The notes beneath the pieces are model-generated. The model saw only the letters and a program-made list of their open reading frames with translations, ran no database searches and was not told the DNA's origin. 64,000 bases of DNA from Chelatococcus composti (GTDB lineage: Bacteria > Pseudomonadota > Alphaproteobacteria > Rhizobiales > Beijerinckiaceae), in NCBI RefSeq assembly GCF_014201415.1, contig NZ_JACHEH010000002.1, positions 1 to 64,000 on the forward strand, in the 5' to 3' direction. Positions within the stretch are counted from its first letter, which is position 1. Every line of letters starts with the position of its first letter. A program made the translations under genes and the position numbers. This document shows positions 59,762 through 63,885 of this stretch, one piece after another.

Positions 59762-59790
59762 TTGACAGTCCGGCTTGCCGGAACGATATT
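59762..59790 (+). promoter_or_regulatory. Candidate sigma-70 promoter of the met leader
   Basis: TTGACA at 59762-59767 is a perfect -35 box, followed 17 bp later by GATATT (four of six matches to TATAAT). The expected start, near 59797, would be about 20 nt before the SAM-II riboswitch. Confidence 0.55.
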
Positions 59791-59815
59791 GCGTCCCGTG
59801 TCGGCCGCCCTGCGG

Positions 59816-59872
59816 TCGCGCCGCGGTGATTTGACCCCACGCAGCTTGCGCCGCGTCACCAAACGCTAAAGC
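59816..59872 (+). promoter_or_regulatory. SAM-II riboswitch (metA motif)
   Basis: The plus strand has the class features in order: CGCGGTGATTTGA, GCTTGCGCCGCG, then CACCAAACGCTAAAG. The CGCGG/CCGCG arms give stem P1, and CGCTAAAG supplies the pseudoknot strand and the A-rich segment that contact SAM. SAM-II is found mainly in alphaproteobacteria upstream of methionine and SAM genes. It lies 40 nt before a short upstream ORF and about 270 nt before metQ, so it could control either. Confidence 0.85.
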
Positions 59873-59912
59873 GCCACGAACGATCTTCGTGGCTCGAGGA
59901 TCGGAGAGAACC

Positions 59913-59993
59913 ATGACGCCGCTGGCGACGTTCCATGACGAAGCGATGCACCGGAGCCGCCGGCGAATGTGTTGTCGCTGCATGATGGGCTGA
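59913..59993 (+). CDS. 26-codon upstream ORF with a Met/Cys codon cluster, candidate leader peptide
   Basis: ATG 59913 follows GGAGAG with about 5-nt spacing and opens MTPLATFHDEAM, then HRSRRRMCCRCMMG. Codons 19-25 are M-C-C-R-C-M-M, preceded by three Arg codons. It ends at TGA 59991, 17 nt before a GC hairpin with a T run (60010-60029) and 149 nt before metQ. This is the design of a leader peptide that senses Cys- or Met-charged tRNA. I infer an attenuator role; no homologue is known to me. Confidence 0.6.
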   Translation: MTPLATFHDEAMHRSRRRMCCRCMMG

Positions 59994-60009
59994 CGGACGC
60001 TTCCGCAGC

Positions 60010-60029
60010 CGGCCCAGTGCGGCCGTTTT
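60010..60029 (+). terminator. Candidate attenuator hairpin before metQ
   Basis: CGGCC and GGCCG form a 5-bp GC stem with loop CAGTGC, followed by TTTT. It starts 17 nt after the upstream ORF. GCCGGC in codons 16-18 of that ORF could pair with GCCGGC at 60007-60012 and compete with the 5' arm. The stem is short, so termination may be weak. Confidence 0.4.
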
Positions 60030-60141
60030 CCGAGACTACCCTGCTTCCATCCGCCGGCATCGCGCTGTTCGCGCCGATCCGTTCATCCGTGCCCATCCGG
60101 CCCGCCCGACGGGTCCGGCACGGACAACCCACGAGGATATC

Positions 60142-60948
60142 ATGATCCGTTTCACGCTTGACCGCCGCGCCTTCGGAGCGCTCGTCGCAACCGGCCTGCT
60201 GCTCGGCTCCACGGCGCTCGCCGCCGCCGAGACCATCAAGCTCGGCGTCATCGGTGGCGACGAGGAGGAGATCGCCGAAGTCGCCAAGAAGGTCGCCGAG
60301 AAGAACGGCCTGACCATCGAGATTGTCGCCTTCTCCGACTACACGCTGCCGAACGAGGCGCTGGACCGCGGCGACATCGACGCCAACGCCTTCCAGCACA
60401 AACCCTACCTCGACGCACAGATCGCCGCCCGCGGCTACAGGATCGTGCCGGCCGGCTACACCATCGTCGAGCCCATCGGCTTCTACTCGACGAGGCACAA
60501 GGACTTCGCCGCCCTGCCCGAGGGCGCGAAGATCGGCATACCCAACGACCCGAGCAACGGCGGACGGGCGCTGCACCTGCTCGCCGCCAACGGCCTCATC
60601 AAGCTCAAGGACGGCACGGGCCTGACGGCGACGCCGCTCGACATCGTCGAGAACCCGAAAAAGGTCACCTTCGTCGAGACCGACGCGGCGCTGCTGCCCA
60701 AGCAGCTGCCGGACCTCGACGGCGCGGTCATCAATACCAACTACGCACTCGGCGCAGGCCTCAACCCCACCAAGGACGCGCTGGTGCAGGAAAGCCGCAC
60801 CAACAACCCCTACGGCAACTTCGTCGCTGTGCGCGAGGCCGACAAGGACAAGCCCTTTGTCGCCAAGCTGGTCGCGGCCTACCAGTCCAAGGAGGTCGCC
60901 GACTTCCTCGCCGAGCGCTTCAAGGGCGCGGTGCTGCCGGCCTGGTAA
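60142..60948 (+). CDS. metQ: MetQ/NlpA-family substrate-binding protein 1
   Basis: This 268-residue protein belongs to the NlpA/MetQ family: IKLGVIGGDEEEIAEVAKKV, VAFSDYTLPNEALDRGDIDA, NAFQHKPYLD, IPNDPSNGGRALHLL and INTNYALGAGLNP. The N-terminus (DRRAFGALVATGLLLG, cleavage near AAAE) has RRxF like a Tat signal and no lipobox Cys, so the mature protein is probably soluble in the periplasm. It delivers methionine or a related sulfur compound to MetNI. ATG 60142 follows GAGGATATC. It is downstream of the SAM-II leader. Confidence 0.92.
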   Translation: MIRFTLDRRAFGALVATGLLLGSTALAAAETIKLGVIGGDEEEIAEVAKKVAEKNGLTIEIVAFSDYTLPNEALDRGDIDANAFQHKPYLDAQIAARGYRIVPAGYTIVEPIGFYSTRHKDFAALPEGAKIGIPNDPSNGGRALHLLAANGLIKLKDGTGLTATPLDIVENPKKVTFVETDAALLPKQLPDLDGAVINTNYALGAGLNPTKDALVQESRTNNPYGNFVAVREADKDKPFVAKLVAAYQSKEVADFLAERFKGAVLPAW

Positions 60949-61046: not shown

Positions 61047-61265
61047 ATGTTCCACGCCTACATCATTGAGGTGGGCGGCGAGCCGGCCGGCGTCCTGGCG
61101 CGCGAGGGCGAGGGAAAGCTGTTCCGCTTCCACGCCACGGCGCGCGCCTATGAACCGCTCGAAGGCAGGATCTTTGCCGACCCGTGGGCGGCCCAGCGGG
61201 CCGCACGCCTCGCACGCAAGGACGACCAACGGGGGCCTCGCGCCCGCGGGCGAAGCACGGCATAA
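61047..61265 (+). CDS. Small hypothetical protein between metQ and metN
   Basis: This 72-residue protein reads [20 protein letters not shown] then [20 protein letters not shown], ending in an Arg-rich tail. ATG 61047 follows GGGAG. Small genes of this kind accompany metNI in some Rhizobiales. No motif indicates a function; I would expect a cytoplasmic protein. It starts 98 bp after metQ and ends 34 bp before metN. Confidence 0.6.
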
Positions 61266-61299: not shown

Positions 61300-62409
61300 A
61301 TGACCGTGAACGCCCATTCCCCCATCACCGCCGACGCGGCGATCCCCGCTAGCGCCGAGGAGGATGCCATCATCCGCTTCGAAGGTGTCGCCAAGTCCTT
61401 CCCGGCCCGCAAGAATTCGGCCGCCGTGCATGCGCTCGCCGGCATCGACCTTGCCGTGCCGCGCAGCTCGATCGTCGGCGTCATCGGGCGCTCCGGCGCC
61501 GGCAAGTCGACGCTGATCCGCCTCGTCAACGGGCTCGAGAAGCCCACTGCCGGGCGCGTCATCGTCGACGGCACGGACGTCACGCGGCTCGACGAGCGGA
61601 CGCTGCGCTCCGTGCGCCGCTCCATCGGCATGGTCTTTCAGCACTTCAACCTGCTGTCCTCGCGCACCGTCTTCGACAACGTGGCGCTGCCGCTCGAGAT
61701 CGCCGGCACTGACAGGAGAACAATCGAGCAGCGGGTGAACCCGCTGCTCGAGCTGGTCGGCCTCGCCGACAAGCGGGGACGCTATCCGGCCGAGCTCTCC
61801 GGCGGGCAGAAGCAGCGCGTCGGCATTGCCCGGGCACTCGCCACCCAGCCCAAGGTGCTGCTGTCGGACGAGGCCACTTCGGCGCTCGACCCGGAGACGA
61901 CGCGCTCGATCCTCGACCTGCTCGCCACCATCAACCGCGAGCTCGGCCTCACCATCCTGCTCATCACCCACGAGATGGCCGTGATCCGGGCCATCGCACA
62001 GCGCGTGGCGGTGCTCGATGCCGGCCGCATCGTCGAGCAGGGCGACGTCTTCGACCTGTTCACGCGGCCGCAGCACGAGACGACGCGCAGCTTCCTCGCT
62101 GCCGAGTCGGGCCGCGAGCTGCCGGCCTTCGTGGCCAGCCAGATCCGGCCCGAGCCGGTCCCCGGCGGCCAGGTGGTGGTGCGCATCGTCTTCCGCGGCC
62201 CCTTCGCCACGCATCCGGTGCTGTCCCAGCTGGCACGCGAGCTCGGCATCGACGTCAACATCCTGGGCGGCGCTGTCGACTCCATCGCCGGCCGCCCGTT
62301 CGGCACCCTCATCGTCGGGCTGCCGAACAACGGCTCGTCGCTCGACAAGGCACTTGCCTTCCTCAAGGCACGCGATCTCGATACGGAGGTGCTCGGCCAT
62401 GTCGCCTGA
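61300..62409 (+). CDS. metN: Methionine ABC transporter ATPase MetN
   Basis: This 369-residue ATPase has Walker [22 protein letters not shown]-loop [11 protein letters not shown], signature [15 protein letters not shown], Walker [17 protein letters not shown] and switch His in [10 protein letters not shown]. The C-terminal NIL/ACT-type domain (about 280-365, [20 protein letters not shown]) binds methionine and gives feedback inhibition in MetN. It overlaps metI by 11 bp. Confidence 0.96.
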
Positions 62410-63064
62410 AATCGCCCGCCTCATCCTGCAGGCGACCGTCGATACGCTCTACATGGTGCTGGTGGCGACGGCGCTCGGCACGCTCCTCGGCCTGCCGCTC
62501 GGCGTCTTCCTCGCCACAAGCCGGCGCGGCGAGCTGTTCTCGGCGCCGTGGCTCAACGCGGTGCTCGGCTTCATCGTCAACGCCACGCGCTCGACGCCCT
62601 TCATCATCCTCGTCGTCGCCATCATTCCCTTCACCCGCCTCGTCGCGGGCACGTCGATCGGCACCACGGCGGCCATTGTGCCGCTGACAGTGGCGGCGAC
62701 GCCCTTCATCGCCCGCCTCATCGAGGCGGCGGTGCGCGAGGTCGACCAGGGCCTCATCGAGGCCGCCCGCGCCATGGGCGCCTCACCGCTGCAGATCGTC
62801 GCAAAGGTGCTCGTGCCCGAGGCGTTGCCGGGAATCGTGCTGGGGCTCACGCTCGCCGTCGTCAGCCTCATCGGCTACTCGGCCATCGTCGGCGTCGTCG
62901 GTGGCGGCGGTCTCGGCGACCTCGGCATCCGCTACGGCTACCAGCGCTTCATGCCTGAGGTGATGGGTGCCGTCGTCGTTGTCCTCATCGTTCTCGTGCA
63001 GGGCGTGCAGAGCCTGGGCGACCGCCTTGCGCTCAGGCTCAACAAGCGCCTGCGCCACGCCTGA
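62399..63064 (+). CDS. metI: Methionine ABC transporter permease MetI
   Basis: This 221-residue permease has about five transmembrane helices and the conserved EAA loop [20 protein letters not shown] (about 121-140) that contacts Met[21 protein letters not shown] and [20 protein letters not shown] are MetI signatures. ATG 62399 lies inside the 3' end of metN. It is 38 bp before the second metQ. Confidence 0.96.
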
Positions 63065-63102: not shown

Positions 63103-63885
63103 ATGTCCATTCGTATCCTCGCCGCCGCCCTTGCCACCGCCATCGGCCTCGGGGCCGCCGCCGCCCAGGCGGAGACGATCAAGGTGGGCGTGACGCCCGG
63201 CCCGCACGCCCAGATCCTCGAGGCTGTGAAGCCCGTCGCCGCCAAGAAAGGGCTCGACATCGAGATCATCGAGTTCTCGGACTATGTGGTGCCCAATGCG
63301 GCGCTCGATGCCGGCGAGCTGCACGCCAACTCGTTCCAGAACCAGCCCTATCTCGACAACCAGGTGGCCGACCGCGGCTTCAAGATCGAGAGCGTCGGTC
63401 TCACCGTGAACTTCCCGCTCGGCATCTACTCGAAGAAGTACAAGTCCTGGAGCGAGGTGCCGGACGGCGCCACCATCGCCATCCAGAACGACCCGACGAA
63501 CGGTGGTCGCTCGCTGCTGCTCCTGCAGGACAAGGGCGTCATCAAGCTCAAGGAGGGCGTCGGCTTCAAACCCACCGTCGCCGATATCATCGAGAACCCG
63601 AAGAAGCTGAAGTTCCTCGAGGTCGATGCAGCCCAGACGCCGCGCTCGCTCGACGACGTGGCCGCTGCGGCGATCAACACCAACTATGCCGTCTCCGCCG
63701 GCCTCAAGCCGCAGGACGCCATCCTGCGCGAGGACGCCAAGGGCCCCTACGTGAACCTGATCGCCGTGCGCAGCGCCGACAAGGACAAGCCCTGGGTGAA
63801 GACGCTGCTCGAAGCCTACCACTCGCCGGAGGTGAAGGCCTTCGTCGAGGAGACCTTCCAGGGCGCCGTCCTGCCGAGCTGGTAA
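63103..63885 (+). CDS. metQ: MetQ/NlpA-family substrate-binding protein 2
   Basis: This 260-residue protein is a paralogue of the protein at 60142: IKVGVTPGPHAQILEAVKPV, EFSDYVVPNAALDAGELHAN, SFQNQPYLDNQVADRG, QNDPTNGGRSLLLL and INTNYAVSAGLKPQDAI. It has a Sec signal (cleavage AQA-ET near residue 23) without a lipobox Cys. Two binding proteins around one MetNI pair suggest two ligand ranges, for example L- and D-methionine or sulfoxides. A strong terminator follows. Confidence 0.93.
   Translation: MSIRILAAALATAIGLGAAAAQAETIKVGVTPGPHAQILEAVKPVAAKKGLDIEIIEFSDYVVPNAALDAGELHANSFQNQPYLDNQVADRGFKIESVGLTVNFPLGIYSKKYKSWSEVPDGATIAIQNDPTNGGRSLLLLQDKGVIKLKEGVGFKPTVADIIENPKKLKFLEVDAAQTPRSLDDVAAAAINTNYAVSAGLKPQDAILREDAKGPYVNLIAVRSADKDKPWVKTLLEAYHSPEVKAFVEETFQGAVLPSW

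Follow-up and report, generated by a model that had tools for sequence, protein, structure and literature searches.

Cysteine-rich leader ORFs behind a SAM-II-type riboswitch point to possible dual sulfur sensing by a single RNA leader in Alphaproteobacteria

Riboswitches and amino-acid attenuators are known as separate devices. Short cysteine-encoding ORFs like those considered here have been encountered in mycobacteria, where polycysteine ORFs, which differ in being leaderless, are reportedly cysteine-responsive attenuators (so the title of Canestrari 2020); to our knowledge no riboswitch stands before them. In the Rhodobacterales, the available text on uORFC-8-2 describes a short uORF with two tandem Cys codons before cysS and proposes ribosome-mediated attenuation (PMC8632094). 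Riboswitches followed by uORFs appear in the accessible parts of two reports on Mycobacterium tuberculosis: an Mbox-uORF leader precedes pe20, with TGC, TGC, TGT, TGT and two AGG codons in uORF1 that are called rare (PMC12810186), and B12 riboswitch-uORF leaders precede metE and ppe2 (PMC11260477). For SAM-II itself, the account of Sinorhizobium meliloti metA, as far as available, places AUG1, a terminator and AUG2 in a row, with both AUGs in one frame and AUG1 unused (PMC9373788).

We analysed a stretch of 64,000 nucleotides of Chelatococcus composti, referred to as the window, in which a SAM-II-type aptamer is followed by a Cys-rich leader ORF and methionine uptake genes. The parts of the locus are as follows.

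59762–59790, + strand: promoter-like site, TTGACA and GATATT spaced by 17 nt (consensus scan, 10/12 matches; alone no evidence of function)
59813–59874, + strand: SAM-II-type aptamer (RF00521, 26.2 bits; outer P2 covariation in 116 related loci)
59873–59893, + strand: hairpin H1, GCCACGAA-CGATC-TTCGTGGC, 8 bp, adjoining the aptamer (fold)
59881–59903, + strand: alternative hairpin H2, CGATCTTCG at 59881–59889 with CGAGGATCG at 59895–59903 (read from the sequence)
59903–59908, + strand: Shine-Dalgarno-like GGAGAG of the leader ORF (sequence)
59913–59993, + strand: leader ORF MTPLATFHDEAMHRSRRRMCCRCMMG, 26 codons, from ATG 59913 to TGA 59993 (translation)
60010–60033, + strand: GC hairpin with four T, a doubtful candidate terminator or pause site (seen in L002, L003 and L004, the last two being the nearest relatives)
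60086–60124, + strand: hairpin H3, TCCGTGCC..GGCACGGA (leader fold), 8 nt before the GAGGA of metQ
60142–60948, + strand: metQ, methionine-binding protein (TIGR00363, 257.2 bits, over cut-off; PF03180)
61047–61265, + strand: small 72-aa protein of a family without a name (match to profile A1; no Pfam or NCBIfam match)
61300–62409, + strand: metN (best NCBIfam match TIGR02314, 395 bits, below the cut-off of 499.7; PF00005 and NIL domain)
62399–63064, + strand: metI (NF008049, 228.6 bits, over cut-off)
63103–63885, + strand: second metQ (TIGR00363, 258.5 bits, over cut-off)

A preliminary description of this DNA had claimed a row of aptamer, hairpin, ribosome site, 26-codon ORF and metQ. That row is borne out, its order recurs widely in relatives, and the first start codon after the riboswitch is indeed that of the short ORF; the hairpin described as having 7 bp is present with one pair more, 8 bp at 59873–59893. 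Within the ORF, TGT TGT (59970–59975), TGC (59979–59981) and Met-Met (59982–59987) place tandem Cys codons near the stop. The gene order after the leader is metQ-x-metN-metI-metQ, so that metN and metI are flanked by two metQ genes (60142–60948 and 63103–63885) in one gene row.

With SAM-II (RF00521) the locus shares P1 and the pseudoknot, the same core, a Shine-Dalgarno sequence and AUG soon after the aptamer, and a further start codon downstream. Unlike typical SAM-II, the subtype found here has a short P2, is immediately followed by a hairpin and scores mostly under the Rfam cut-off; unlike SAM-II at S. meliloti metA, it is followed by an ORF that stops after few codons and contains Cys. 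The short ORF with tandem Cys codons is shared with uORFC-8-2, but according to the available text uORFC-8-2 is confined to cysS, has a U-run in all cases and comes with no mention of a riboswitch, whereas here metQ or other genes follow and no terminator is conserved (PMC8632094). In place of cysS and a U-run, the window has metQ and four T only. The M. tuberculosis leaders resemble the design proposed for this locus, in that their riboswitches control translated uORFs, or are coupled to them, and these uORFs affect the downstream gene; they differ in ligand and phylum, and their accessible sections propose no amino-acid sensor (PMC12810186, PMC11260477). The Mbox uORF1 is moreover described as poorly conserved, and the text treats its Cys codons as rare codons and does not use the word cysteine (PMC12810186). 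The earlier assertion that no case of such a design had been described therefore needs narrowing: riboswitch-controlled or riboswitch-coupled uORFs are published, and in the parts of those papers available we found none with amino-acid codons as a proposed second sensor (PMC12810186, PMC11260477). Searches of an open-access collection, one that mostly lacks subscription papers and preprints, turned up no account of SAM-II with a Cys leader ORF behind it.

The RF00521 match spans 59813–59889 with 26.2 bits (E 0.0055 for 4 kb; gathering score 36). P1 is formed by CGCGG (59822–59826) with CCGCG (59851–59855), and outer P2 by the pairs G59841–C59874 and C59842–G59873; P1 and the remaining P2 pairs are assigned from the sequence, the Rfam alignment and the known SAM-II structure. 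The SAM-II core (ATTTG, GCTTGC, GCTAAA) and the P1 stem are present, as judged from the Rfam alignment and related loci. Because 26.2 bits is less than 36, a database threshold and not a structural trait, we use the name SAM-II-type. In 116 loci among the matches listed, Watson-Crick pairing is seen 114 times at one outer P2 pair and 100 times at the other, where shuffles reach at most 100 and 96, and compensatory changes run from C-G to T-A and from G-C to A-T; the next P2 position, the third tested, does not pair above shuffles in the same 116 loci. The short P2 and the mostly low Rfam scores might mean that the aptamer in front of a Cys leader attenuator now binds another ligand or no longer binds SAM. 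We consider this improbable: outer P2 covaries, the core motifs ATTTG, GCTTGC and GCTAAA persist across two orders, and the same subtype stands directly before metZ-like genes.

Of 397 genomes of the family, 241 match RF00521 with an E value no higher than 0.05. Two subtypes are seen in the 105 loci that were sorted: subtype A, in which a hairpin CCACG..CGTGG directly follows GCTAAA, and subtype B, without the hairpin. Of these loci, 42 are A and 55 are B, the table omitting L013 together with 8 loci that lack the core motif and retaining two weak A rows (L097 and L103) that are probably not SAM-II. When only ATG starts were counted, short ORFs followed 32 of 42 subtype A aptamers (31 with Cys, 17 with CC) and 5 of 55 subtype B aptamers (4 with Cys, 3 of these in the last six residues, 0 with CC), a contrast to be read knowing that the split criterion is the hairpin but was fixed after the ORFs had been viewed. 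One exception is a subtype B locus (L064) with no hairpin and a CCC ORF 16 nt after the core, outside the window of the rule. Both subtypes co-occur in one Bosea genome (g12) and one Microvirga genome (g32), and thus provide an internal control for the ORF contrast. Subtype B often precedes genes whose N-termini read like metZ or a sulfonate-binding protein.

RF00521 scores for subtype A lie mostly at 20–33 bits, below the cut-off, with one exception at 38.7 (L038). With that cut-off applied, the Rfam SAM-II model overlooks most members of one subtype. Even at E 5, L263 and L266 are absent from the matches despite plain SAM-II cores. We therefore rejected the Rfam non-match as proof that SAM-II is absent, and judged absence by the missing core motif.

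The arrangement is repeated within the genome and the genus. A second RF00521 match in the same genome (28.3 bits at C4:509651; locus L001, C4:509651–509723) is followed by a hairpin and a 12-codon ORF, MSRFLMRACCRS. All six RF00521 matches listed in four genomes of the genus combine aptamer, hairpin and a short Cys-containing ORF. The three nearest relatives retain Met-Cys-Cys-Arg and Met-Met in the ORF, whereas the third Cys of MCCRC, which the preliminary description had counted among its motifs, already varies inside the genus, being Ala in L003 and Ser in L004. The arrangement of the second own-genome locus recurs in C. caeni (L134), where it stands before the gene of an MsuE-type FMN reductase (TIGR03566, over cut-off). 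The earlier reading had named loss of the ORF or of its Met/Cys codons in relatives as a ground for giving it up; the ORF and its Cys codons are kept far outside the genus, and so the reading was not refuted on this ground.

To follow the arrangement across named genomes we used a pattern consisting of the subtype A aptamer core and the left hairpin arm, which is blind to ORFs. It returned at least 118 loci in Bosea, Microvirga, Methylobacterium, Azospirillum, Niveispirillum, Kaistia, Labrys, Inquilinus, Oceanibaculum and other genera, placing the subtype in genera of two orders, Hyphomicrobiales and Rhodospirillales. Of 19 rows grouped as Bosea by sequence likeness, seven are titled otherwise (Rhizobiales, Hyphomicrobiales or Boseaceae bacterium, and one Methylobacterium MAG). 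One of the 118 was a duplicate, leaving 117 distinct loci among the matches listed. Our rule, which included fall-backs, took the earliest start codon that had a ribosome site, and ORFs of at most 60 codons were called short; by this rule 105 of the 117 loci among the matches listed have a short ORF, 10 a longer one and 2 none. In the two last (L114 and L180) the available sequence stops soon after the aptamer. Three Microvirga loci (L162, L171, L177) with a long ORF by the rule were counted as misses, and we think that this long ORF is out of frame. In a class-wide scan, the pattern with at most two mismatches matches 27 of 385 alphaproteobacterial genomes, and the reversed pattern gave no match among the genomes listed. 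Thirty loci were taken from that scan; excluding our own, the 29 others, some of which overlap the named-genome set, comprise 16 with a short ORF containing Cys, 7 with a short ORF lacking it and 6 with a long ORF directly.

Among the matches listed, Cys is present in 104 of the 105 short ORFs and makes up 255 of 2396 residues in frame (10.6%), as against counts of 126 and 40 off frame and 5.0% (maximum 6.0%) in dinucleotide shuffles; CC occurs in 64 of the 105 (shuffle mean 4.8, maximum 13), and 109 of 173 Cys runs have Arg after them. In 100 of 104 ORFs, no more than five residues separate the final Cys from the C-terminal end. Since the loci are related, all shuffle tests overstate independence. 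Relatedness was reduced by thinning the ORFs to 52 dissimilar peptides, in which Cys is found 120 times in frame and 68 and 20 times off frame (mononucleotide shuffle mean 41, maximum 58), and the CC count is 24 (shuffle maximum 5). The Met content claimed earlier is likewise confirmed across relatives, with 59 Met in frame in the 52 peptides and 9 and 8 off frame (shuffle mean 10.6, maximum 22). Of these 59, 25 are within two residues of a Cys and 14 are among the first five residues after the start, possibly representing other starts.

A background control points the same way. We examined 20,000 random places in the flanks of the loci with an ATG-only rule and obtained 1,294 short ORFs, of which 3.4% have CC and 17% have Cys among the last six residues. 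Applied behind the aptamers of the 117 loci among the matches listed, this rule yields 89 short ORFs, 55 of them with CC and 85 with Cys among the last six. A spurious ORF in a GC-rich leader is hardly credible as an explanation, given these background rates, the shuffles and the conservation; in its favour, the whole window leader folded as a single sequence is no more stable than shuffles (z −0.17). The in-frame excess also bears on a second alternative, that the Shine-Dalgarno sequence is a standby site recruiting ribosomes that start downstream, leaving the short ORF untranslated. By the available text, the Shine-Dalgarno sequence after SAM-II at S. meliloti metA is required and yet translation begins 74 nt downstream (PMC9373788). 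In the window, 239 nt separate the ORF ribosome site from metQ, and an untranslated ORF would not keep such an excess of in-frame Cys and Met; we regard a standby site as very improbable here.

What kind of ORF is this? In 16 Bosea-type ORFs of 22 codons, pairwise differences per codon position are 0.39, 0.38 and 0.38, without codon periodicity, while Cys20 and Arg21 are invariant and Cys18 and Cys19 are kept in 14 and 12. A body that drifts without periodicity around an invariant Cys-Arg fits a cis-acting leader and not a functional peptide. Azospirillum ORFs give no test between the two, since the 8 with 28 codons, and likewise the 5 with 30, remain similar over their full length. A peptide acting in trans has a precedent in peTrpL, an S. 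meliloti leader peptide that reportedly acts in this way. For the ORFs here we give that explanation scant credence: they range from 5 to 59 residues, show no periodicity, keep only the C-terminal Cys and Arg, and in some cases have six codons (MTTCCP). ORFs of 5 to 59 codons are easily omitted from annotation. Six-codon ORFs encoding MTTCCP or MTCCCP were seen in Niveispirillum and relatives (L112, L193, L220, L156, L254) and are perhaps the smallest Cys leaders.

We think it probable that the SAM-II-type riboswitch sets initiation on a Cys-rich leader ORF whose elongation reports charged tRNA-Cys and perhaps tRNA-Met; we infer both the sensing of SAM and the sensing of tRNA charging at the leader. 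With SAM bound, the P2 strand would take bases of H1, H2 would close the ribosome site of the ORF, and the ORF would stay untranslated. In classical attenuators an untranslated leader ORF also means no expression. At low SAM the ORF would be translated; if cysteine or charged tRNA-Cys were low as well, the ribosome would slow at the Cys codons close to the end of the ORF, and its pausing there would let expression of the operon continue. Full expression would thus need both inputs to be low, an AND gate for sulfur need. The readout would depend on the pause and might act through Rho, a hairpin or translation, perhaps differently in different genera.

For the first of these steps, the hairpin after the aptamer is the element of interest. 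H1, as CRCG..CGYG, is found in 116 of 117 loci among the matches listed; its left arm was part of the pattern and its right arm was not. The second inner pair covaries (59 Watson-Crick and 31 G-U pairs; shuffle Watson-Crick mean 28.8, maximum 44). At the first outer pair the count of 96 is above the shuffle maximum of 94. The first inner pair does not exceed shuffles (91, maximum 93), and the third inner position is unpaired. Reading the sequence, H2 is mutually exclusive with H1 and extends to the ribosome site of the leader ORF. P2 and H1 overlap in that the outermost P2 tail base is the H1 outer base; with only about one pair shared, they compete for little. When the H1 left arm was blocked in the model, pairing of the ORF ribosome site reached 0.72, compared with 0.537 (sd 0.018) for shuffled linkers, but the block itself raised it only from 0.67; among the matches listed, 31 of 105 loci gained more than 0.1 and 10 dropped. 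With a shift of just this size, a SAM-driven switch in which H2 closes the ORF ribosome site is plausible rather than demonstrated.

Several candidate readouts after the ORF were considered. The GC hairpin with TTTT had been put forward as a terminator, a claim that did not hold up: the terminator scan of the window found 0 (0.6 expected from shuffles), and the 60010–60033 stretch folds no better than shuffles (z +0.98). We rejected an intrinsic terminator as the general readout as well, with 7 of 87 loci terminator-like against 3.9 in shuffles. A terminator alternating with an antiterminator, a trait of Cys leader-peptide attenuators, was thus not found here. Also rejected was a stalled ribosome that gates the ribosome site of the main gene, for which modelled pairing is 0.80 with the ORF untranslated and 0.81 with the Cys codons blocked; duplexes of that site with the upstream region have a mean z of +0.2 versus shuffled regions in 80 loci.

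A hairpin before the gene is more frequent than expected in some groups. A stem of at least 5 bp abuts the ribosome site of the first gene in 38 of 80 loci, compared with 19% in shuffles: in Methylobacterium 13/13, Bosea-type 10/11, Azospirillum 8/19, Microvirga 3/11 and others 4/26. Consensus folding from the end of the ORF to the gene finds H3 in the Bosea-type and Methylobacterium leaders; Microvirga and Azospirillum yield little, and nothing in these folds pairs with the Cys codons. A GC hairpin before the ribosome site of the first gene is also seen in the leaders L259, L261, L268 and L284, which lack the aptamer core.

A C-rich tract was found in 45 of 87 loci, compared with 2 of 87 promoter regions. 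A C/G ratio over 1.5 after the ORF occurs in 30 of 87 loci and, in matched controls, in 10 of 37 subtype B leaders and 26 of 162 other ORF starts. Because C-richness is weak against these matched controls, we do not claim a Rho readout. This tract is nonetheless what might be expected if the riboswitch acted alone, that is, if SAM controlled initiation on the ORF, translation opened or protected the downstream mRNA, and the Cys codons were slow codons and not a sensor. A precedent exists in the mycobacterial riboswitch-uORF leader with Rho-dependent termination, where the available text calls the Cys codons rare (PMC12810186). Arguing against it here, 100 of 104 ORFs among the matches listed keep Cys close to their end while other residues drift, and Cys leaders without a recognisable SAM-II precede the same small gene. 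Met, which is not known as a rare-codon residue, is also enriched. We thus hold control by the riboswitch alone to be unlikely, though the least so of the alternatives to a riboswitch gating a tRNA-charging sensor.

These leaders stand before genes of methionine and sulfur uptake. Ten downstream proteins were scanned: two MetQ, a MetN-like protein, an MsuE-type FMN reductase, a sulfate-binding and a sulfonate-binding-like protein, three copies of a small unnamed protein and one porin. This small protein of 60 to 90 aa (AYVIEVxGxxAGIVV..GF.F) lies between the leader and met transporter genes in many Alphaproteobacteria (for example L133:499-696) and is often the first gene after the leader. The copies scanned have no Pfam or NCBIfam match, and its profile A1 matches 40 of 385 alphaproteobacterial genomes. 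Upstream of it, in 29 of 30 loci, a SAM-II core is present in 19, 17 of them with a Cys leader ORF. Five of the ten core-less loci also have a Cys leader ORF, four with a ribosome-site-like sequence (L262, L268, L259, L261) and one without (L284, MNRITAHNHPSRMCCARMCCC); in L259 and L261 the Cys codons are in the middle of the ORF and not at its end. L266, from the genus of L268, has both aptamer core and Cys leader. Conversely, the aptamer stands directly before a sulfate-binding-protein gene in L206 (NF008022, 514.7 bits) and directly before a metZ-like gene, named from the protein start only, in L192, L241 and L251. The occurrence of leader alone, aptamer alone and both together indicates that the parts are modular.

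The presence of the arrangement in many Alphaproteobacteria raises the prospect of a single RNA leader that responds to two sulfur signals at once. That it is a widespread two-input sulfur gate of this class, responding to SAM and to Cys/Met tRNA charging, with modules gained, lost and recombined between loci, seems to us about as probable as its opposite. Before genes for methionine and sulfur uptake, a small-molecule sensor here seems to decide whether ribosomes enter an amino-acid sensor. If this is correct, a single leader would integrate the end product SAM with the charging of both sulfur amino-acid tRNAs, and two minimal parts would form a natural AND gate whose leader-alone, riboswitch-alone and combined variants allow the inputs to be dissected.

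One of the loci with the aptamer before a metZ-like gene, L192, belongs to a MAG record titled Anaerolineae and carries a riboswitch subtype otherwise seen in Alphaproteobacteria, possibly as a result of contamination or transfer.
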